DNA of 35,942 nt from a virus. The position numbers were made by a program, and so were the translations under genes. Under the pieces are notes generated by a model. It was not told where the DNA came from. It searched no databases and was given only the letters and a program-made list of their open reading frames with translations. Where the stretch lies: IMG/VR virus record IMGVR_UViG_3300033571_002446, positions 1 through 35,942 of that record; one strand, written 5' to 3'. Below, piece by piece: positions 2,002 through 23,276 of the stretch (positions within the stretch are counted from its first letter, which is position 1; each line of letters opens with the position of its first letter).

Positions 2002-2244
2002 TTAGTCAATTAAACAAGTTCCGCTAAAGTCAACGTCTAAGTCTTTATATTTTTTATCTAAATACTTAAACAAACTATCTTTACTTCTGAATCTTTTCAC
2101 TTGCTCTCTATCAGACCATGCGTTTTGATACGTGTATTCTCTTAATATCGCAACGTAACCACCTTTGAAAAGTTTACCTTCACTTGCTACAGATAAAGTG
2201 TTGTCTGTTAACACGTTTTCTTTTAAAATAAATTGTAATGCCAT
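2002..2244 (-). CDS. Hypothetical early protein, 80 aa
   Basis: 80-aa basic protein starting MALQFILKENVLTDNTLSV at base 2244. It is the first gene after the type I hammerhead ribozyme: predicted self-cleavage would leave a 5'-hydroxyl leader of about 23 bases before its ATG. The protein looks alpha/beta with a charged middle (WSDREQVKRFRSKDSLFKYL). No catalytic motif or family is recognised. Confidence 0.7.
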   Translation of the reverse strand: MALQFILKENVLTDNTLSVASEGKLFKGGYVAILREYTYQNAWSDREQVKRFRSKDSLFKYLDKKYKDLDVDFSGTCLID

Positions 2245-2261
2245 AATAAATAAATTTAATT

Positions 2262-2312
2262 GGTTAAGACGGGCAATGCCCGTTTCGACTATCTAAGTCT
2301 CGTCAGTTAACC
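2262..2312 (-). ncRNA. Hammerhead ribozyme, type I
   Basis: Read leftward, every core element of a hammerhead ribozyme is present in order: stem I 5' strand GGTTAA (2307-2312), CTGACGA (2300-2306), stem II GACT/AGTC around TAGAT, GAAA (2283-2286), stem III CGGGC/GCCCG around ATT, cleavage triplet GTC (2268-2270), and stem I 3' strand TTAACC (2262-2267). All helices are perfect Watson-Crick (6, 4 and 5 bp), and A15.1-U16.1 adds one more pair. Predicted cut: between plus-strand positions 2268 and 2267. Stems II and III are closed, so this is the type I permutation. Stem I contains the TAA of the upstream 87-aa gene. Confidence 0.92.
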
Positions 2313-2570
2313 TATATGCTCGTTTCCGTCTTCATCGTAATACTCGTCTTCATCTTCAACATCCCATTCTGTGTAGTAGTACTCTTCTAAATCATAAGCC
2401 TCTTTTAATATAAAATCATCGGATAAATCTTTTGTTTTATCCACGTCTCTATCTCTTAGCCATTTTATTAATTGAGACTCTTCTGAGAAGTATAATTCTC
2501 CGTCATTAACGCAGTAACCTTCGTTCATTCCTTTGCCCGTTGCTGAACATTTTCTTGCAAATTTTTCCAT
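2307..2570 (-). CDS. Hypothetical protein with Cys-rich start and acidic tail, 87 aa
   Basis: 87-aa protein starting MEKFARKCSATGKGMNEGYC. Cysteines at positions 8 and 20 and a strongly acidic, Tyr-rich C-terminus (EEYYYTEWDVEDEDEYYDED region) stand out. I believe proteins with this FARKCSxTGxGMNEG opening recur as uncharacterised proteins in Bacteroidota and their phages, but this is from memory. Its ATG lies one base after the 51-aa gene. Its stop codon sits inside stem I of the type I ribozyme, so translation of its end could affect RNA folding. Confidence 0.75.
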   Translation of the reverse strand: MEKFARKCSATGKGMNEGYCVNDGELYFSEESQLIKWLRDRDVDKTKDLSDDFILKEAYDLEEYYYTEWDVEDEDEYYDEDGNEHIG

Positions 2571-2571
2571 G

Positions 2572-2727
2572 TTAATAGTTATTTAATATTTCCCAAAAAT
2601 TACCTAATTCTTCTCCATGCTCTTTTCTAATAGCAACGTATTCTAATTTTCTTTTTTCTAATTCTTCAGGTGTTCCAATCCAAGTATTAAACGCTAATAC
2701 TTCTGCTTGTTGCTCAATTGTTTTCAT
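2572..2727 (-). CDS. Hypothetical protein, 51 aa, first gene after leader ribozyme
   Basis: A 52-codon frame starting MKTIEQQAEVLAFNTWIGT at base 2727 and ending one base before the 87-aa gene. It is helical and charged with no membrane segment. It is the promoter-proximal gene of the leftward operon; predicted cleavage of the type III hammerhead would place the mRNA 5' end about 60 bases upstream of this ATG. Function unknown. Confidence 0.6.
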   Translation of the reverse strand: MKTIEQQAEVLAFNTWIGTPEELEKRKLEYVAIRKEHGEELGNFWEILNNY

Positions 2728-2740
2728 AATAAATATTTTT

Positions 2741-2793
2741 AACGTTTCGTCGTTCTGCGACTCATCAGCATGGATAACACATCCATGTACGTC
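2741..2793 (-). ncRNA. Hammerhead ribozyme, type III
   Basis: Read leftward: stem III 5' strand GACG ending in triplet GTA (2788-2790), stem I CATGGAT/ATCCATG (7 bp) around GTGTT, core CTGATGA (2762-2768), stem II GTCG/CGAC around CAGAA, GAAA (2745-2748), and stem III 3' strand CGTT (2741-2744). Stems I and II are closed, giving the type III permutation. Predicted cut: between plus-strand positions 2788 and 2787. Stem III is short (three Watson-Crick pairs plus G-U, besides A15.1-U16.1), which may slow the reaction. GTA fits the NUH rule. It lies in the leader, 14 bases before the 51-aa gene. Confidence 0.9.
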
Positions 2794-2967
2794 TTTTTCT
2801 TCCTAGCCCAATACTCACACATTGAAGACCAACAAGTAACGCTTTTAATCGCCTCGTTCCGCGCTACTAATCTATGTTGATTTTCACGGGTATAATTGCG
2901 GGACTCGACACCCTGACTGCTATACCTCAGCCCTTTTATAGTCTGTTTTTGACTTTGTTGTTATTTG
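2794..2967 (-). other. Untranslated leader of the leftward operon (would be cut off by the ribozyme)
   Basis: About 170 bases between the inferred leftward promoter and the type III hammerhead. GC is visibly higher than in the flanks. GGTATA and TATACC can pair around a GGG/CCC hairpin at 2888-2924. A frame without ATG stays open for 73 codons (2742-2960) and runs into the ribozyme; its only ATG, at 2822, would give a 27-aa Arg/Lys-rich peptide. Either a structured leader RNA or an unusual small gene. Confidence 0.4.
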
Positions 2968-2973
2968 ATGTCG

Positions 2974-3004
2974 CAAAGTAACGACGACTTTTTTTAATAT
3001 GCAA
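2974..3004 (-). promoter_or_regulatory. Leftward promoter of the small-gene operon
   Basis: On the minus strand TTG (3002-3004) is followed after 20 bases by TTACTTTG (2974-2981), one mismatch from the Bacteroidota -7 consensus TAnnTTTG. Spacing matches the known -33/-7 arrangement of these hosts. Placement fits transcription of the leader, ribozyme and small genes. Other promoters further upstream in the repeat region are not excluded. Confidence 0.5.
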
Positions 3005-3231
3005 AATTTTAACAAAACTTTAACACTTGCTATCTTCTCATCTTGTGTACCATACTGCTAAGCGTAACGTGTGACCAACTAATTTACAATACTCGGGTGC
3101 TTACTTCAATACATTCACTCATTATTGTTAGTGTATATGTATGTCTGTTATTTTGTTGTCATGATATTAAAGAACGTTGTTTCATTTTGACAGGACAAAC
3201 TTACAACATGTTTTTCAGTTACACAAATAAA

Positions 3232-3266
3232 ATCGATGAAATGCAAAAAAAATCGTTGAAATGCAA
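3232..3266 (+). repeat. Two 16-bp direct repeats
   Basis: AATCGATGAAATGCAA and AATCGTTGAAATGCAA occur 18 bases apart with a single mismatch, separated only by A residues. They open the repeat-rich non-coding region and could be protein-binding iterons. Confidence 0.6.
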
Positions 3267-3510
3267 CTTTACTTTAGTTGTACACTTGTGAATAGCAATG
3301 AAATAAGGGATTCTTAAAATCGATAAATATATCAAATGTATCGATAAACGATAAATAAGAGGGTTGTTATTCCTTGTCTCTTTGTTTATCGCAAAGATTT
3401 TTTAACCATATCGCATAGTTAACAGGGTTTTATCCCTTTGTCAACCCTTTTAAAATAAGGAATCTTAAAATCATTTCACCAATTATACACGTGTTACTTG
3501 GTAACGCATA

Positions 3511-3573
3511 CAATATAGATTCAGTATATCAATACAATATAGATTCAGTATATTAAGATTCAGTATATCAATA
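3511..3573 (+). repeat. Tandem imperfect repeats with core GATTCAGTATAT
   Basis: The core GATTCAGTATAT starts at 3518, 3542 and 3557. The first two copies share a longer 20-base unit beginning CAATATAGATTCAGTATAT; the third is truncated. AT-rich tandem units of this kind fit iterons or an unwinding element, though no protein partner is visible. Confidence 0.7.
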
Positions 3574-3627
3574 CTAGATTTGATATTTGGTATAACAAAG
3601 GCGTTCACTCGTGGAATAAATGTACCC

Positions 3628-3707
3628 GTGCGTGCGTGCGTGCGTGTATATATAAACCAACTGCATGCGTGTAACGTAATAGCCGTTTGTTGTCGTTTGT
3701 TGTCGGC
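3628..3707 (+). repeat. GTGC run, duplicated CGTTTGTTGT and flanking inverted arms
   Basis: A run of four to five GTGC units (3628-3646) is followed by two adjacent copies of CGTTTGTTGT (3684-3703), bounded by AGCCG and CGGCT that could pair. Tetranucleotide runs like this are prone to slippage. Function unknown. Confidence 0.6.
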
Positions 3708-3831
3708 TACAAAAACGCCAAAAATATGCAGCGAAATTTTGAAATCGATAACCCCCCCTGCAAAAAAAAATCGTTTTCTTTTTCGCATCCGTTTCGTCAA
3801 ACCATTATATAACCCCCAGATTACGCATATC

Positions 3832-3948
3832 TGTGTCGTTTTTTTAATTCTGTGTCGATCCCATGTCGTTTTTTAAAAAGTTTGTCATTGAATTTTCTCT
3901 TTATTTATAAGCCTTCCCAAGGTTTAGTGTCGATATGTCGTTTTTTTA
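3832..3948 (+). repeat. Iterated TGTCGTTTTTT motif
   Basis: TGTCG followed by six or seven T residues occurs at 3834, 3864 and 3936, with shorter TGTCGAT copies between them. The reverse form CGACA recurs at about 4026-4112. The iteration and AT-rich setting suggest binding sites; the binding protein is not known. Confidence 0.55.
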
Positions 3949-4118
3949 CCTACTATTTCAACAAAAAAAATATATAGTATATATATAATTATATATAGTA
4001 GTATATAGGGAAAATATTGACATTTCGACATTTTTAATAAACTTCTCTTTACTGACGTGGCCTAAGGGTATGACAAACTTATTTTTTTATCAGCATTGCC
4101 TCGACACAGCGACATTGT

Positions 4119-4148
4119 TTGAAAATTAAAAATAAATGTGTATATTTG
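4119..4148 (+). promoter_or_regulatory. Promoter of the chaperonin operon
   Basis: TTG (4119-4121), 19 bases, then TATATTTG (4141-4148): a full match to the Bacteroidota TTG/TAnnTTTG promoter. The first ATG of the 43-aa gene lies 20 bases downstream and groEL 162 bases downstream. Confidence 0.75.
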
Positions 4149-4168
4149 CTGAATCAAAATCAAATCAA

Positions 4169-4300
4169 ATGAAAATAGACTTAACATTCGACCCATACAC
4201 ATTGCTAATTGGAATGAACTACTACCCATCAGGTGATGGATACATTTATGACGAGTTCAACATCTTCTTGTTATTCTTTAGGATAAGCATTCAATACTAA
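4169..4300 (+). CDS. Small protein upstream of groEL, 43 aa
   Basis: A 44-codon frame starting MKIDLTFDPYTLLIGMNYY, first gene behind the 4141 promoter and ending 10 bases before groEL. The start (KIDLTFDP) and end (FRISIQY) look like edge strands, with a hydrophobic FLLFF stretch near residues 33-37. It is probably co-transcribed with groEL. I do not recognise a named family. Confidence 0.6.
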   Translation: MKIDLTFDPYTLLIGMNYYPSGDGYIYDEFNIFLLFFRISIQY

Positions 4301-4310
4301 AATCAAATAT

Positions 4311-5918
4311 ATGACAGACTTTAATTACAGCCCAAAGGAGCTGATCTTCGACCAGGAGGGAAGGGAGAAACTAATAAAAGGAATAAGCACGATCGCTAAG
4401 GCGGTTAAGAGCACGCTGGGCCCAAGGGGTAACACGGTCCTTATTGAATCACGAAGCCATACACATGGTATAACGGTTACAAAGGATGGGGTTACGGTTG
4501 CTAGGAGCATCGACCTGCTGGATCCTGTTGAGAACCTAGCGGTTCGTATGATGAAGGAGGCCGCTGATAGAACGGCATCGATGGCTGGTGATGGTACGAC
4601 CACTGCGATTGTCTTGACTGAGGCGATTGTTAAGAACGGCATGGACATGCTTAAGGACACGCACAACGTGAGCGAGGTGATTAGGCACATGAACAAAATC
4701 ACGGACGATGTGATTAAGCTGCTTGAGAAGAGGTCCAAAAAGGTGAGCGGTAAGACGCTGTCTGACGTGGCTACAATCTCTGCTAACAATGACAAGGAGA
4801 TTGGGAAGATTATTGCTGACGTTTATAATAAGGTCGGGAAGAACGGTATCGTTACAGCGAACAACTCACAGACGGCTGAGACGTACTACGAGTTCACAAA
4901 CGGGATCAAGATCGACAGGGGATACACATCGAACCTATTTATTAATGACTTCAAGAAGGACGAGTGCATCATGGAGGACGTTTATGTTCTGGTGAGTGAC
5001 CAGGAGATAAATAACATCCTGTCTATCGAGCGTGTGCTGAGACCAATCATTAACGAGGGTAAGAAGTTATTAATTATTGCCCCGTGTTCAGGTAACGTGA
5101 TAAACACCTTGGCGGCTAATGTGGTGCAGAACAAGGTGAAGATGTGCAACATATCTCCGCCTCAGTTCGGGTACAAGCAGAAGGAGCTGATGGGAGACAT
5201 TGCCCTGGCTGTTGGTGCGAAGTACTTCAGCGAGCAGACTGGTGATGACTTGAGCTTGATCGGCATGGAGCACTTGGGTAGAGCTGAGCGCATCATCATT
5301 GGAAGGGATAGCAGCGTTATTGTTAGATCGGAGGACGTGAGTCCAGAGATGCAGGAGCGAATTGATCAGCTGTGGCAGGCTCACGAGAACACATCTCGCA
5401 AGGCTGACAAGGACTTCATTAAGGAGAGGATCGCCTCATTAACTGGCGGTGTTGGTGTTATCTATGTTGGCGGATCGTCTGACATTGAGCAGAAGGAGAA
5501 GTACGACAGGGTTGACGATGCGATATGTGCGGTTAGGTCTGCGATTGAGGAAGGGATACTACCTGGAGGAGGGTTGGCGCTGTTCAATATCTCGGACGAG
5601 TTGTCATTCTTGGCGGATGAGAACATTGAGGATATGAGCAAGGAGCAGTTCGTGGCGTACCATATTATGTCAAGATCGATGCAGGCACCGCTGTGTCAGA
5701 TAATGGTCAACGCAGGACTGGACCCATGGGACATCATGAAAGATCCTACGACTGCCCACGCGTACGGGTACGACGTTAAGAACAACGTGTTCGGTGACAT
5801 GTACGCTATGGGCGTGATTGACCCACTGAAGGTGACAAAGAACGCGCTTAAGAATGCGGTGTCGGTGGCATCAACGATACTAAGTACAAATGCAATAATA
5901 ACAATAGCGAGAGCGTAA
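4311..5918 (+). CDS. groEL: Phage-encoded 60-kDa chaperonin GroEL
   Basis: A group I chaperonin (535 aa) would form the ATP-driven folding ring in the host cytoplasm, here presumably for virion proteins. The equatorial ATP site is intact: D59 in KDGVTVA, DGTTT at 94-98 and D403 in RVDDA, equivalent to E. coli D52, D87-T91 and D398, followed by the GGG loop near 419-421. The apical binding face is altered: E. coli Y203 corresponds to L209 and L234 to E240, V263/V264 align with Ala/Ala, and PGFGDRRK is replaced by PPQFGYKQK. The acidic/GGM tail is missing. It is GC-richer than most of the window. A GroES gene follows after an inserted homing endonuclease. Confidence 0.97.
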   Translation: MTDFNYSPKELIFDQEGREKLIKGISTIAKAVKSTLGPRGNTVLIESRSHTHGITVTKDGVTVARSIDLLDPVENLAVRMMKEAADRTASMAGDGTTTAIVLTEAIVKNGMDMLKDTHNVSEVIRHMNKITDDVIKLLEKRSKKVSGKTLSDVATISANNDKEIGKIIADVYNKVGKNGIVTANNSQTAETYYEFTNGIKIDRGYTSNLFINDFKKDECIMEDVYVLVSDQEINNILSIERVLRPIINEGKKLLIIAPCSGNVINTLAANVVQNKVKMCNISPPQFGYKQKELMGDIALAVGAKYFSEQTGDDLSLIGMEHLGRAERIIIGRDSSVIVRSEDVSPEMQERIDQLWQAHENTSRKADKDFIKERIASLTGGVGVIYVGGSSDIEQKEKYDRVDDAICAVRSAIEEGILPGGGLALFNISDELSFLADENIEDMSKEQFVAYHIMSRSMQAPLCQIMVNAGLDPWDIMKDPTTAHAYGYDVKNNVFGDMYAMGVIDPLKVTKNALKNAVSVASTILSTNAIITIARA

Positions 5919-5964: not shown

Positions 5965-6639
5965 ATGGAAAGAAACAAAGTAGTTTACCTACATAGAAAG
6001 AAAACAGATAACTCTGTGTTCTATGTAGGTATGGGTGATTTAAAAAGAGCTTACTCAAAACAAAGAAGTAATTGGTGGAATGGAGTAGTTGATAAATATG
6101 GATATACAATAGAAATATATAAAGACAACTTAAATAAACAAGAGGCTTTTGATTTAGAAATAGAACTTATAAACAAATACGGAAGAATAGATTTAAAAAA
6201 CGGTCAACTTATTAATCAAACAAAAGGCGGAATTACAGTCAATGGATTATCAGATAAAGTTGTAAAAAGAAAAATAAAAGCTTTAAAATCCGTAAAAAGA
6301 ACTGATGAATGGAGAAATAAAATATCTTTATCTCATAAAGGAAAAATAAAATCAAAGGAACATAGAGAAAAAATATCTAAAACATTAAAAGGTAGGAAAA
6401 CACCAGAAAGCGTTAAAGAAAAAATGAGGTTGTCTAATAAATCAAATTTAATAAACGGTGTTCCAGTTTTTTGTTATGATTATATTACTTCTGAGCTTAT
6501 TTTTGAATTTAAATCTTTAAGTGACGCCTCTAGAGAATTAGGTTGTTTAGCAACATCAATATGCAATAATTTAAGCTTTAGATCTAAAAAAACAAAAAGT
6601 AAAACATTAAATAAATTAGTAACATTTAAATACAAATAA
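5965..6639 (+). CDS. GIY-YIG homing endonuclease
   Basis: Free-standing homing endonuclease (224 aa) that would cut an allele lacking it and be copied in by repair. The GIY-YIG nuclease domain covers about residues 5-90: strands VYLH (7-10) and FYVGMG (19-24), then R28, a conserved Glu in the helix near 60-67, and Asn in NQTKGG (84-89). NUMOD3-type DNA-binding motifs follow (HKGKIKSKEHREKIS and the GRKTPESVKEKM segment, about 124-157). A NUMOD1-like helix-turn-helix ends the protein (VFCYDY...SLSDASRELG). It is much more AT-rich than the flanking groEL and groES, in keeping with recent insertion. It has its own promoter. Confidence 0.9.
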   Translation: MERNKVVYLHRKKTDNSVFYVGMGDLKRAYSKQRSNWWNGVVDKYGYTIEIYKDNLNKQEAFDLEIELINKYGRIDLKNGQLINQTKGGITVNGLSDKVVKRKIKALKSVKRTDEWRNKISLSHKGKIKSKEHREKISKTLKGRKTPESVKEKMRLSNKSNLINGVPVFCYDYITSELIFEFKSLSDASRELGCLATSICNNLSFRSKKTKSKTLNKLVTFKYK

Positions 6640-7392: not shown

Positions 7393-8415
7393 ATGACTAA
7401 AATTTCATTGTATCCATTAGATACTAATATACAGGACGATGACCTTTTAATAGGAACGGACAAGGAAACACCTAGTAAATTTACCAAGAACTTTAGTATT
7501 GGTGATATAAAAACATTCATCAACGCATCTGCTGTTCCAGGACCAGTAGGACCAGCAGGACCTCAAGGGGTTCAGGGGCCTGTCGGACCAGCAGGACCTG
7601 TCGGACCAGTAGGACCAGCAGGGTTAGATTGGCAGGGTACTTGGGATTCAGGAACATCATACATTGAAGATGATGCTGTTGGTTATAATGGTGCATCTTA
7701 TTTCTGTATTTTAGCAATAACAGGAGCTATACCTCCATCGACTAACTTATATCCAGACGTTGACACAACGCACTGGGCATTGCTAGCTTCACAAGGAGCA
7801 GAGGGACCACAAGGACCGACAGGTGCACAGGGGCCACAGGGAGAACAAGGACCAGCTGGAACAAATATAAGCACAAGGGGTGTTGTAAATACTAGCGCTT
7901 CAGCTCCTTATAACGTTCTTGAGTATGACATAAACACAGTAACAGGAACTTCTAATAATACTGTTAGGCTTCCAGAGAACGCTTACACTGGAAAGGTAAT
8001 TATTGTCTCTTCTAACGGAGTAAATCCTGTAAATATAAATACTTATGACTCGTTATCAACAATATCAATTAACGATTCAAATAGTAATACTAATGCATAC
8101 AAATTATACGCTTACGATACAATAAAATTTATATCATTAGGCAATGGGTTTTGGCAAGCTGAAATTATTGGAGGTACAAACATTACATATAATGGGAAAA
8201 GAATAGGTGCTTCATTTGGTTACGTTGTGAATGACATAATTTTAAACACAACAACATCACCATATAACGCTGCGGCTTTAAATGCATTATATCCAAACTC
8301 ATTATACCCGTTAGGAACGAGGGTTTCATGTTCTAGCATAACAGGAGGTGGGCTGATGTATACTAAAGTAGGAGTAGCTACATGGGTTTCAAATCCTATA
8401 ACAGCAGTAGTATAG
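7393..8415 (+). CDS. Collagen-like tail fibre protein
   Basis: 340-aa fibre protein. Start taken at ATG 7393 because the frame upstream overlaps the promoter and reads as unrelated hydrophobic residues; the N-terminus then becomes [19 protein letters not shown], which looks like a virion-attachment segment. Two collagen-type Gly-X-Y blocks (about 50-77 and 135-157) flank a roughly 50-residue module rich in Trp/Tyr ([30 protein letters not shown]) resembling small carbohydrate-binding domains of the ChiC/CBM5_12 type. The C-terminal half is Asn/Thr-rich beta structure. Trimeric fibre that may contact host glycans (inference). Confidence 0.85.
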
Positions 8416-14747: not shown

Positions 14748-16971
14748 CCTATACGTTGTTGTTTCTAATTACATAGATAAAAACGTTGTTAATAATAGGA
14801 ATAAAAAAAAGGCCTGGGCATACGGTTACGATGAGAAGTATAACATAGTTATTATATCTCGTGACGGTACACTTGGTGAGGTTTACAATATAAACGGTCT
14901 TCACATAGGACTTCCAGCCGTCCCAGATTTAGTATATAAAAGGGACGGTAAAAAAGAAAAGCAATACTGGGAACCGTTCGAGTACCCAAAGGAACTACAA
15001 AGAATTAAGAGTATATTCCAGTGGCATACAATGCCTAAGGACTTCAAATCAAAATGGGTTGACTACATAGAGACCGAGTTTGATAGAAGGGAGGCTGGAT
15101 TCTGGTTCATGAATAATGGATTACCTACATACATTACAGGATCCAACTACATGTACCTTCAGTGGACTAAGATTGACGTTGGTCTGCCAGATTATCGTGA
15201 GGCTAATAGAGTTTTCTGGATATACTGGGAGGCCTGTAAGGCTGACTTTAGATGCTTTGGTATGATATACCTTAAGATTAGACGTTCTGGGTTCTCATTT
15301 ATGGGGTCCGCAGAGGGCGTTAATACTGGTTCGATTACAAAGAACGCAAGGATAGGTATTTTATCCAAGACTGGAGGGGATGCAAAGACGATGTTTACAG
15401 ATAAGGTCGTACCTATATCTAGTAACTACCCGTTTTTCTTCAAGCCTATTCAGGACGGTATGGACAAGCCTAAGACTGAGCTTGCTTACCGTATGCCTGC
15501 TTCTAAGATCACCAAGAAGAACATGTATGACGAGAATCAAGACGAAATAGAAGGCCTTGACACGTCTATTGACTGGAAGAATACTGGAGATAACTCGTAT
15601 GATGGGGAGAAGCTGAAGCTTCTTATTCATGACGAATCGGGCAAATGGCTTAAGCCTGATAATATTTTAAATAACTGGCGTGTAACTAAGACATGTCTTC
15701 GTTTGGGATCTAAAATTATCGGTAAGTGTATGATGGGTTCTACTTCGAATGCTTTAGAAAAGGGAGGTAAGAACTTCAAAACCCTTTACGAGGACTCTAA
15801 TGTTTCTACTAGAAACTCAAACGGACAAACAAGGTCTGGACTTTACAACCTATTCATTCCTATGGAGTGGAATTTTGAGGGTTATATAGATAGGTACGGT
15901 TTTCCTGTTTTTAGAACACCAGAAAAGCCAGTAATAGGTATAGATGGCATGATGATTAAGATAGGAGCTATTGACTTCTGGGAGAACGAGGTTGATTCAT
16001 TAAAAAGTCATCCAGATTCACTTAATGAGTTCTATAGACAGTTCCCTAGAACAGAGTCTCATGCGTTTAGGGACGAGAGTAAATCATCCTTGTTTAATCT
16101 TACTAAGATTTACCAGCAGATAGACTACAATGACTCATTAATAAAGGAACGTGTCCTTACAAGGGGATCGTTTCATTGGATGGACGGAGTTAGAAACACT
16201 AAAGTTGTTTGGACCCCAGATACTAGAGGTAGGTTCTTGGTTAGCTGGATACCTCCTAAGCATTTACAGAACAGGGTAGAGATACGAAACGGGGTAAAGT
16301 TCCCAGGTAACGAACATATAGGTGCCTTTGGATGTGACCCGTACGATATATCAGGAACAGTTGACGGCAGAGGATCTAACGGGTCTTTGCACGGAATGAC
16401 TAAGTTTCACATGGATCAAGCTCCTACAAATCAATTCTTCCTAGAGTACATATCAAGACCACAGACTGCTGAGATATTCTTTGACGACGTTCTCATGGCT
16501 TGTATATTCTACGGAATGCCAGTTCTTGTTGAGAACAACAAGCAAAGGCTGCTTTATCATATAAAGAATAATGGGTACAGGCAGTATTCAATGAACAGGC
16601 CAGACAAACACTATTCTAAGCTATCTAAGACAGAAAGAGAGCTAGGAGGGATGCCTAACTCGTCTGAAGACATAAAGCAGGCTCACGCATCCTCTATTGA
16701 GACGTATATAGAAAAGCACGTAGGATTAGATCTTGAGTCTACGTATAGAGATCCAGATGAAATGGGTTCAATGTACTTCACAAGAACTTTAGAGGATTGG
16801 GCTAAGTTTGATATAAATAACAGGACCAAGTTTGATGCCGCTATTAGTTCAGGTTTAGCTATTATGGCTACACAAAAACACATGTACACTCCAGTTAAAA
16901 AAGAATCAAAAATAAGTATTAACTTTGCAAGATACAAAAACGCAGGATTGTATAGTGAATTAATTAAGTAA
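14707..16971 (+). CDS. terL: Terminase large subunit
   Basis: DNA-packaging motor ATPase and nuclease, 754 aa. ATG 14707 is chosen over the in-frame GTG 24 bases upstream. A deviant Walker A, KIRRSGFSFM (190-199), lacks GKT but lines up with the phage lambda gpA motif in which the Lys comes first. Walker B with catalytic Glu is LLIHDESGKW (D309, E310); GSTSN (near 344-348) is the coupling motif. The RNase H-like nuclease has D544 in FGCDPYD, E608 in PVLVENNKQ and D710 in RTKFDAAISSG. It overlaps the small-subunit candidate by 41 bases, and the portal starts directly after its stop. Confidence 0.93.
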   Translation: MKTKEDSQREDQNNLYVVVSNYIDKNVVNNRNKKKAWAYGYDEKYNIVIISRDGTLGEVYNINGLHIGLPAVPDLVYKRDGKKEKQYWEPFEYPKELQRIKSIFQWHTMPKDFKSKWVDYIETEFDRREAGFWFMNNGLPTYITGSNYMYLQWTKIDVGLPDYREANRVFWIYWEACKADFRCFGMIYLKIRRSGFSFMGSAEGVNTGSITKNARIGILSKTGGDAKTMFTDKVVPISSNYPFFFKPIQDGMDKPKTELAYRMPASKITKKNMYDENQDEIEGLDTSIDWKNTGDNSYDGEKLKLLIHDESGKWLKPDNILNNWRVTKTCLRLGSKIIGKCMMGSTSNALEKGGKNFKTLYEDSNVSTRNSNGQTRSGLYNLFIPMEWNFEGYIDRYGFPVFRTPEKPVIGIDGMMIKIGAIDFWENEVDSLKSHPDSLNEFYRQFPRTESHAFRDESKSSLFNLTKIYQQIDYNDSLIKERVLTRGSFHWMDGVRNTKVVWTPDTRGRFLVSWIPPKHLQNRVEIRNGVKFPGNEHIGAFGCDPYDISGTVDGRGSNGSLHGMTKFHMDQAPTNQFFLEYISRPQTAEIFFDDVLMACIFYGMPVLVENNKQRLLYHIKNNGYRQYSMNRPDKHYSKLSKTERELGGMPNSSEDIKQAHASSIETYIEKHVGLDLESTYRDPDEMGSMYFTRTLEDWAKFDINNRTKFDAAISSGLAIMATQKHMYTPVKKESKISINFARYKNAGLYSELIK

Positions 16972-19407
16972 ATGAAAGACGTACAGATATCAATTAATCA
17001 AATAGGCTTCCCTAATCAGTTTGCAACGGATAAGGAGAAGGAATCCTATGAATACGGTTTAAAAATAGGGCAAAGTATACAATACGAATGGTTTCGTAAG
17101 GATGGAAGATCTTGTCGATTTTATAATCAGTGGTCTGATTACCATAGATTAAGACTATACGCAAGGGGAGAGCAGTCTATTCAGAAGTACAAGAATGAAA
17201 TATCTGTAGACGGTGACTTATCGCACTTAAATATTGACTGGACACCAGTTCCTATTATACCAAAATTCGTGGACATTGTTGTCAACGGAATGAATGACAG
17301 GTTGTTTGCTATTAAGGCATTTGCTCAGGACGCTATGTCTACAGAGAATAGATCTAAATTCCAGGAGTCTGTTCAGGCTGATATGGTGTCAAAGGATTTA
17401 TTGCTTCAGGTTAAGAACGACTTCGGTATTGATGCCTTTGAAACAAAGCCAGATGACTTACCAGAAACATCAGAGGAGCTTTCTTTATTCATGCAAATGA
17501 ACTACAAGCCAGCTATAGAGATAGCTGAGGAGGAGGCGATTAACACTATTTTAGAGCAGAACAGATACTACGACATTAGAAAGAGGGTAGACTACGATAT
17601 TGTTATACTAGGTATAGGTATTGCTAAGCACCAATTCCTTCCAGGAGCAGGCGTTAAGTTAGACTATGTTGACCCAGCGAATGTTGTTTACTCATACACA
17701 GAGGACCCTAAATTCAGGGACTGCTTCTACTGGGGAGAGATTAAAACAGTTCCAATTACTGAGCTTCCTAAGATAGACCCTACCTTAACAAACGAAGATT
17801 TAGAAGAAATTTCAAAGTACAGCAAGGCTTGGTATGATTACTACAACTCAGCTCAAATGTATGCCAATAGCTTGTTCTATCAAGACACAGCTACGTTAAT
17901 GTATTTCAACTACAAGTCAACAAAGAAGGTTGTATATAAAAAGAAAATAAAGGAAGACGGAACAGAAACGTTAATAGAAAAAGACGACACCTTCAATCCT
18001 ACAGAGGAGATGATGAAGGATAGAAACTTTGAAAAGGTTGAGAAAACAATTGATGTTTGGTATGATGGGGTTATGGTTATGGGTACTAAAATACTTTTAA
18101 AGTGGCAACTTTCTAAGAATATGGTTAGACCTAAATCAGCATCTCAGTATGCTATACCTAATTATGTTGCTGTTGCTCCAAAATTATACAAAGGAAAGAT
18201 AGAGTCATTACTTAGAAGAATGATACCATTTGCTGATTTAATTCAGATGACTCACTTAAAGCTACAACAGGTAATACAAAGAGTTGTTCCAGACGGGGTA
18301 TTTATTGATGCCGATGGTATTAATGAGGTAGACTTAGGTACTGGAGCCGCATACAACCCAGAGGACGCATTAAGATTGTACTTCCAAACGGGATCTGTTA
18401 TAGGTAGAAGCTACACTGGAGACGGTGAATTTAATAATGCTAGGGTTCCAATTCAGGAGCTAAACACAAACAGCGGGCAGGGTAAAATAAATAGCTTAAT
18501 TGGAAGTTACAACCATTACCTAAGCATGCTTAGAGATGTAACAGGTCTAAATGAAGCTAGAGATGGTTCTATGCCAGACCCTAATTCATTAGTAGGATTA
18601 CAAAAGCTTGCGTCAGCAAACTCAAACACAGCTACAAGACATATACTAGAAGGAAGTTTACATATAACAAAATCATTAGCAGAGGCTGTTTCTTACAGGG
18701 TTGCTGATATTTTAGAGTACTCAGACTTTAAGGATGAATTTATACTACAGATAGGTAAGTATAACGTAGGGATACTTGATGAAATTAAGGATCTATACAT
18801 TTACGACTTTGGTATATTTATTGAGGTAACTCCAGATCTTGAAGAGAAGGCTCAGTTAGAAGCGAATGTTCAGATGGCTTTATCTAAGGGAGATATAAAC
18901 CTTGAGGATGCTATTGACATTAGAGAGGTTAGAAATATAAAGCTAGCTAATCAAATACTTAAGCTTAAGAGAAAGAAGAAGCAGGAGCTTGACCAGAAGA
19001 ATCAGATGATGATGTCTCAGCAGCAGGCAGACATAAACTCTCAGTCTCAACAGATGGCAGCTCAGACCGCTATGATGAAGATACAGGCTGAGACTCAGTC
19101 TAAAATACAAATCAAGCAAGCTGAGGTAGCGTTTGAAATTGAAAAATTAAAGAACGAGGCGATGCTTAAGACTCAGTTAATGGATAAAGAGTTTAGCCTT
19201 AACATGCAGCTAAGAGGTGTAGACACTGAGCTACAGATGACTAAGGAAGACAAGAAGGAGGCTGCTAAAGATAAAAGAATAAGCATACAGAATACTCAGC
19301 AGTCTAAGCTTATAGAACAAAGAAAGAACAATCTGCCTCCAGTTAACTTTGAATCAAATGAAGATTCCTTGGATGCGTTTGATTTAGCTGAGTTTGAGCC
19401 TAGATAA
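16972..19407 (+). CDS. Portal protein
   Basis: 811-aa portal, the dodecameric ring at the packaging vertex through which DNA enters and leaves. Assigned by position directly after terL, length, and domain pattern: helical and strand-rich clip/stem region to about 650, with VDPANVVYSYTEDPKFRDC and a YNHYLSMLRDVTGLNEARDG segment typical of podoviral portals. A long Gln/Lys-rich coiled coil follows (about 660-790), forming a barrel in many podoviruses. The acidic tail ends DSLDAFDLAEFEPR. Confidence 0.9.
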   Translation: MKDVQISINQIGFPNQFATDKEKESYEYGLKIGQSIQYEWFRKDGRSCRFYNQWSDYHRLRLYARGEQSIQKYKNEISVDGDLSHLNIDWTPVPIIPKFVDIVVNGMNDRLFAIKAFAQDAMSTENRSKFQESVQADMVSKDLLLQVKNDFGIDAFETKPDDLPETSEELSLFMQMNYKPAIEIAEEEAINTILEQNRYYDIRKRVDYDIVILGIGIAKHQFLPGAGVKLDYVDPANVVYSYTEDPKFRDCFYWGEIKTVPITELPKIDPTLTNEDLEEISKYSKAWYDYYNSAQMYANSLFYQDTATLMYFNYKSTKKVVYKKKIKEDGTETLIEKDDTFNPTEEMMKDRNFEKVEKTIDVWYDGVMVMGTKILLKWQLSKNMVRPKSASQYAIPNYVAVAPKLYKGKIESLLRRMIPFADLIQMTHLKLQQVIQRVVPDGVFIDADGINEVDLGTGAAYNPEDALRLYFQTGSVIGRSYTGDGEFNNARVPIQELNTNSGQGKINSLIGSYNHYLSMLRDVTGLNEARDGSMPDPNSLVGLQKLASANSNTATRHILEGSLHITKSLAEAVSYRVADILEYSDFKDEFILQIGKYNVGILDEIKDLYIYDFGIFIEVTPDLEEKAQLEANVQMALSKGDINLEDAIDIREVRNIKLANQILKLKRKKKQELDQKNQMMMSQQQADINSQSQQMAAQTAMMKIQAETQSKIQIKQAEVAFEIEKLKNEAMLKTQLMDKEFSLNMQLRGVDTELQMTKEDKKEAAKDKRISIQNTQQSKLIEQRKNNLPPVNFESNEDSLDAFDLAEFEPR

Positions 19408-22839: not shown

Positions 22840-22861
22840 GTTTTTATAGATTATTACAAAT

Positions 22862-22890
22862 AAGCACTCTATTTTAGGGTGCTTTTTTTT
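22862..22890 (+). terminator. Intrinsic terminator after the 248-aa gene
   Basis: Arms AAGCACTCTA and TAGGGTGCTT pair over 10 bp (one G-U) with a TTT loop and are followed by further T residues. Immediately followed by a promoter box. Confidence 0.85.
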
Positions 22891-22931: not shown

Positions 22932-23222
22932 ATGGAAAAATTTTTAAGAATCCCTGTAACAAACGAACAAACTCAAATTCTTTCGGCTACAGGAATTGTG
23001 TTGATTGAGCAGGAATCAGCAACAACAGTACACGTTCACTACAAATCAAGTACAGCAACAGACGTTGTAACTATTACACATGCGTCAGCAGGATCTGGAA
23101 ACGAAGCTATGCGTGATGCAATTCAAAACGCAGTAATTGCTTCACTAGAAGAAGGGTGGACTAAGGTTGCTTACGACGTGGTAAACTTACCATTCGCTGT
23201 TTCAGGAATTACTATTGCGTAA
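22932..23222 (+). CDS. Small abundant virion protein candidate, 96 aa
   Basis: 96-aa protein expressed as a single-gene unit: terminator plus promoter in front, and the same cassette behind. It looks like beta strands (LRIPVTNEQTQILSA, GIVLIEQESATTVHVHYK) and one helix (NEAMRDAIQNAVIASLEEG). Isolation from neighbours suggests high or separately timed expression, as for a head decoration protein. No family recognised. Copies of the flanking cassette could let the gene be lost or exchanged by recombination. Confidence 0.7.
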   Translation: MEKFLRIPVTNEQTQILSATGIVLIEQESATTVHVHYKSSTATDVVTITHASAGSGNEAMRDAIQNAVIASLEEGWTKVAYDVVNLPFAVSGITIA

Positions 23223-23246
23223 CACCTTTTACACTATTACAAAAAT

Positions 23247-23276
23247 AAGCGCTCTATTTTAGGGTGCTTTTTTTTT
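23247..23276 (+). terminator. Intrinsic terminator after the 96-aa gene
   Basis: Arms AAGCGCTCTA and TAGGGTGCTT pair over 10 bp (two G-U) around a TTT loop, followed by more T residues. Confidence 0.85.

Follow-up and report, generated by a model that had tools for sequence, protein, structure and literature searches.

A type I hammerhead ribozyme at a small-gene junction of a virus related to Flavobacterium phages and its probable role as punctuation in a phage transcript

The viral DNA analysed here (IMG/VR record IMGVR_UViG_3300033571_002446, positions 1 to 35,942, in the following called the window) contains a real type I hammerhead ribozyme, which lies on the minus strand between two small genes of 87 and 80 aa (Table 1). 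Conserved and intact ribozymes are found at gene boundaries and in coding orientation in the related viruses as well. The reading we favour, with a probability of about 75%, is that the type I hammerhead is a working ribozyme that acts as punctuation and splits a small-gene phage transcript. Cleavage in the cell is very probable, and a benefit of the splitting, by way of protected ends and differential expression, is slightly favoured by the evidence described below.

Table 1. Positions of the hammerhead ribozymes, their parts and the neighbouring genes. Positions refer to the window unless a phage accession is given.
Feature	Position	Strand	Evidence or remark
Type I hammerhead ribozyme	2262..2312	-	sequence, Rfam, fold, covariation in 41 relatives, independent model
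Type I stem I	2312-2307 with 2267-2262	-	6 bp
Type I core CTGACGA	2306-2300	-	sequence
Type I stem II	2299-2296 with 2290-2287	-	4 bp
Type I GAAA	2286-2283	-	sequence
Type I stem III	2282-2278 with 2274-2270	-	5 bp plus A15.1-U16.1
Type I U16.1 and C17	2269 and 2268	-	predicted cut 2268/2267
TAA stop of 87-aa gene, in 5' arm of stem I	2307..2309	-	ORF 2307-2570; stop used alike in L006, L011, L028
Upstream 87-aa gene	2307..2570	-	without PHROG or Pfam family; 27 relatives in viral contigs
Predicted 23-nt leader of 80-aa gene (5'-OH once cut), TTAACCAATTAAATTTATTTATT	2245..2267	-	sequence; leaders of relatives 18-28 nt as a rule
Downstream 80-aa gene	2002..2244	-	without PHROG or Pfam family; 6 relatives
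Type III hammerhead ribozyme, ahead of first gene of small-gene run	2741..2793	-	RF00008 22.6 bits; fold; covariation; same place in elemoC
Type III stem III	2793-2789 with 2745-2741	-	
Type III A17	2788	-	predicted cut 2788/2787
Type III stem I hairpin	2787-2769	-	
Type III core CTGATGA	2768-2762	-	
Type III stem II hairpin	2761-2749	-	
Type III GAAA	2748-2745	-	
51-aa gene, first of run	2572..2727	-	ATG 13 nt past type III ribozyme
elemoC, L167 (MT497066.1), type I and type III hammerheads	16689-16750, 18502-18558	-	unannotated
elemoF, L169 (MT497071.1), type I junction of elemoC	near 8150-8210	-	

Read from 2312 to 2262, the element consists of GGTTAA, CTGACGA, the arms GACT and AGTC around TAGAT, GAAA, the arms CGGGC and GCCCG around ATT, and a T and a C, after which the predicted cut and TTAACC follow. 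The conserved core CUGANGA...GAAA...UH with the cut after H17 is thus present, as CTGACGA, GAAA and T C within 2306-2268. Stem I is open, loops close stems II and III as in the type I permutation, and the helices are backed by covariation. Both the MFE and the centroid fold of 2262-2312 are the hammerhead (-16.4 kcal/mol, shuffle z -2.6), and in a simple thermodynamic model, which excludes tertiary contacts, the complete fold is held by 16-26% of the molecules, varying with flank length. The first-pass annotation had proposed a search with the Rfam type I model. The RF00163 match was indeed found, with a score of 26.5 bits (E 0.019 across the whole library) that misses the gathering score of 34, a cut-off which is an annotation threshold and no structural feature. 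Unrelated control genomes also give weak RF00163 matches, and Rfam alone is therefore insufficient to settle the identity of the element. An independent covariance model trained without the window and without its protein-found relatives (family model R2, other loci only, A2) gives the window copy 63.7 bits (E 1.2e-12) as its sole match in the window. A permissive finder applied to 60 simulated sequences of 36 kb returned 10 matches with a stem total of at least 10 and two with at least 15, the window copy reaching 16. Identity and coordinates given in the first-pass annotation, for which the lack of a covariance-model hit was named as counter-evidence, are hence borne out by sequence, fold and the independent model.

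Scans with the two flanking proteins led to 33 viral loci. With our own finder and the covariance model, 23 of the 35 records searched proved to contain type I copies, one to four in each and mostly grouped in one small-gene stretch; among the 50 type I matches listed one is a relic (L014). In an alignment of 41 copies 98.2% of the cells are paired, 12 of the 16 pairs are altered on both sides, and the covariation amounts to 0.603 in comparison to 0.149 for shuffles and at most 0.099 for slid controls. Since our finder requires the core, core conservation was judged on the model-found matches. All 40 of these have an intact catalytic core; in three of them an additional base separates A9 from stem II, and in one stem III contains a long insert. 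Most copies have GGTTAA/TTAACC as stem I. About three quarters of a larger set of 137 copies stem from a pattern scan which fixes most of stem I, and the stem I statistics were therefore drawn from the protein-found set, in which an A is found at -7 in 36 of 36, at +7 in 35 of 36 and at +8 in 34 of 36 copies. This conserved A-A mismatch beyond stem I and loop II, which begins with U in nearly all type I copies, form a candidate tertiary contact. The relic in L014 (1444-1469, AAGATTAACTGACAAGTATTAACCAA) seems to be what remains of a ribozyme after loss of stems II and III, with the stem I arms and the stop still present. Of the 10 stretches picked up in bacterial genomes by a pattern scan, the structural finder accepted only L159, L161 and L164.

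The 137 type I copies share a layout of stop codon, ribozyme, leader and start codon. The upstream stop lies between -15 and +3 of the core in 111 copies and inside the ribozyme in about half, most commonly at -3 as the TAA of stem I (35 copies) or at +1 as the TGA of the CUGA core (24 copies), and also at -8 to -12. The distance from the cut to the ATG is 18-28 nt in most copies, with a median of 22. When ORFs of 40 aa or more are considered, 91 of the 137 copies have both stop and ATG placed in this way, compared with 0.6% of random positions; this control is lenient, since any element between genes would exceed it. Of the three frames, the one that lacks a built-in stop is used less often than the other two (15 versus 40 and 42, p 6e-5). 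Median gaps are 74 nt at ribozyme junctions and 12 nt at the other junctions of the same stretches, so that a ribozyme junction appears as an ordinary tight junction with the ribozyme placed between stop and leader. The leader AAATTTATTTATTATG recurs in the window at 2001-1990 ahead of a gene without ribozyme. Stop overlap alone is therefore no proof of translation coupling, and compact gene junctions account for it equally well. For the window itself, the TAA had been assigned to stem I and the leader of the 80-aa gene estimated at about 23 bases in the first-pass annotation. Both statements are right, with the TAA at 2309-2307 and exactly 23 nt from 2267 to the ATG at 2244.

The 87-aa gene ends inside a ribozyme in the window, L006, L011 and L028, and in L030 a ribozyme lies just upstream of it; most other relatives of that gene have no ribozyme directly adjacent. 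None of the six relatives of the 80-aa gene is directly preceded by a ribozyme, and no named phage carrying the 87-aa protein was found. Loss of the core in related phages with conserved flanking genes, which had been put forward as a sign against the element, is thus seen in part: most 87-aa relatives are without a ribozyme at the gene end, but there the downstream gene differs too, and the cores that exist are intact. In L031-L033 a promoter-like TATATTTG is situated about 35 nt ahead of the ATG of the 80-aa gene, and a terminator-like hairpin follows its stop. This suggests, as far as sequences can tell, that ribozyme-made ends are able to replace promoter and terminator. We also looked at the gap 1325-1496 as a candidate structured RNA and rejected it, as its fold is no better than that of shuffles (z -0.95).

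A second hammerhead, of type III and absent from the first-pass annotation, precedes the first gene of the small-gene run. The RF00008 match comprises 2739-2785 on the minus strand, the full helices reach 2741-2793, and the fold agrees. Stem III is open and stems I and II are closed, as in the type III permutation, with covariation in 12 of 16 pairs (12 sequences). The score of 22.6 bits is below the gathering score of 48.5, and as the type I copy also falls short of its own (26.5 versus 34), Rfam annotation misses both. Neither a tRNA ahead of the type III element nor a TAnnTTTG promoter in the 260 nt ahead of it was found. The order of type III followed by type I is seen in the window, L023, L030, L058, L068, L115 and elemo. 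Type III elements of L103, L127 and L135 lie between larger genes, 33-58 nt past the upstream stop and several with a preceding hairpin, and possibly represent a second kind of arrangement. The region of the window from about 2800 to 4250 is a long AT-rich stretch without clear genes, which contains short repeats (tgatatactgaatct near 3510-3570 and CGCACG runs near 3630) and is a possible promoter or origin region.

If the minus strand is transcribed, the type III ribozyme before the first gene and the type I ribozyme between the 87-aa and 80-aa genes would fold and cut co-transcriptionally. The two cuts together would free a piece of about 520 nt (2787 to 2268) bearing the 51-aa and 87-aa genes. 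The message for the 80-aa gene and for what follows would begin with a 5'-OH just 23 nt from the ATG, and the upstream piece would retain its stop codon, with the ribozyme body and a 2',3'-cyclic phosphate at its 3' end. At -5.6 kcal/mol the stem I duplex by itself is weak, so that the cleavage products should separate. The likely benefit would be separate units with protected ends and with amounts that are free to differ, which would replace a promoter and a terminator between the genes. Most junctions in these phages are without a ribozyme and the same genes are found with and without one, so that no individual gene strictly needs the splitting.

Other readings of the same junctions have to be weighed against punctuation. 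The range from -15 to +3 is normally covered by a ribosome at termination, and a ribosome that terminates in or near stem I might keep the helix open, so that heavy upstream translation would delay the cut and both genes would stay joined. The position of the stop in 111 of 137 copies, its place inside the ribozyme for about half of the genes and the under-used frame without built-in stop (15 versus 40 and 42) all fit such ribosome-gated cutting; however, compact packing yields the same stop placement, as the median gap of 12 nt at other junctions indicates, and we consider this candidate unlikely. If it is true, translation decides how the mRNA of each small gene is separated and expressed. 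That the element is a chance look-alike or a dead remnant has a next to negligible probability: the RF00163 score under the cut-off, the relic in L014 with only its stem I arms left and the disrupted stem II in elemoF would agree with it, but the match to the independent model, the covariation and the core, intact in all 40 copies that the model found, speak against it.

The conserved blocks GGTTAACTGA, GAAAC and TTAACCAA might also be retained as short homology for cassette exchange. In locus pairs such as L009/L010 and L006/L028 the sequences are identical up to a break within the ribozyme and unrelated beyond it, and many gene families reappear with changed partners across a ribozyme. Striking as these single cases are, ribozymes hold only 14 of the 119 junction breakpoints and are present at 36 of the 252 junctions, which is no enrichment over other gene junctions. 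A recombination hot spot was therefore rejected, and as an intact catalytic core would not be needed for such joints either, this explanation of the ribozymes is very unlikely. Formation of circular mRNAs is highly improbable. Similar stem I arms would let the piece between two type I ribozymes rebuild the active site and ligate its own ends, and the common GGTTAA/TTAACC stem and the several copies per record are in line with that; but the arms are unlike within some records (L004, L020), the window has a single type I copy, RtcB is absent from 18 related records, and circles were sought and not found for prophage hammerheads according to the main text of PMC3088659. The absence of RtcB from those 18 records also led us to reject phage-encoded RNA repair; the search for T4 RNA ligase 1 ran without a positive control and carries no weight.

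The punctuation reading has a precedent. According to the main text of PMC3088659, published in 2011, clustered prophage hammerheads (Agrobacterium ardA, Clostridium scindens, Azorhizobium) are found on either side of single genes or short blocks of genes; the authors proposed that long phage transcripts are processed into mRNAs of one gene each, and cleavage was shown in vitro and in E. coli. The splitting of a small-gene operon, which the first-pass annotation had regarded as the new part, was thus already proposed there. Bacterial hammerheads are enriched close to phage genes and other self-cleaving ribozymes (PMC10085705). As in the main text of PMC3088659, the present hammerheads are clustered around phage genes, with two in the window and up to four of type I per related record. 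The earlier set belongs to prophages of other hosts, and the term 'stop codon' occurs 0 times in that main text. The present set differs by its near-uniform stem I, the stop fusion and the leader length, and it comes mostly from viral contigs related to Flavobacterium phages. With RF00163 (Hammerhead_1) and RF00008 (Hammerhead_3) the elements have the core, the three stems and the cleavage site in common. The type I permutation and several copies per genome are shared with the metazoan hammerheads of retrozymes and Penelope-like elements, which in contrast reside in repeats or retroelements and yield circular RNAs (PMC7761336), whereas the present ones lie between protein-coding genes of tailed phages. 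New, as set apart from the main text of PMC3088659, are the coherent stem I, the stop-codon fusion, the fixed leader and the order of type III followed by type I. No report of stop-codon-fused phage hammerheads was found in the open literature, outside of which most subscription journals lie.

A stretch of DNA connects the window to the Flavobacterium phage elemo, GroEL is encoded in both, and the host of the window virus is probably a Flavobacterium-like bacterium. In the window the GroEL gene (4311-5918, plus strand, phrog_5725) is next to a homing-endonuclease-like ORF (5965-6639, plus strand, phrog_314). Two near-identical terminator-like hairpins (22853-22889 and 23236-23274, plus strand, sub-threshold sau-6072 matches) surround a 96-aa ORF at 22932-23222. 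The type III element of elemoC sits ahead of the first minus-strand gene, the same place as in the window. The type I element has a diverged stem I (GGCAAA/TTTGTC) and an unchanged layout, in which the stop is a TAG at -8 and the leader measures about 26 nt; the annotated plus-strand gene 16676-16783, which covers it, is probably spurious. The same junction in elemoF shows four differences in 251 bases, two of which are adjacent and break two stem II pairs, so that elemoF possibly carries a natural weakened copy.

The role of hammerheads in phages was left open by the 2011 survey, as far as its main text goes (PMC3088659). The ribozymes described here share a strict geometry, offer many natural replicates, and are present at a gene in some viruses and missing from the same gene in others. 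The cultured elemo phages have a known host, Flavobacterium sp. BAL314. Together with the pair of elemoC and elemoF this makes the effect of the ribozyme on gene expression directly testable.
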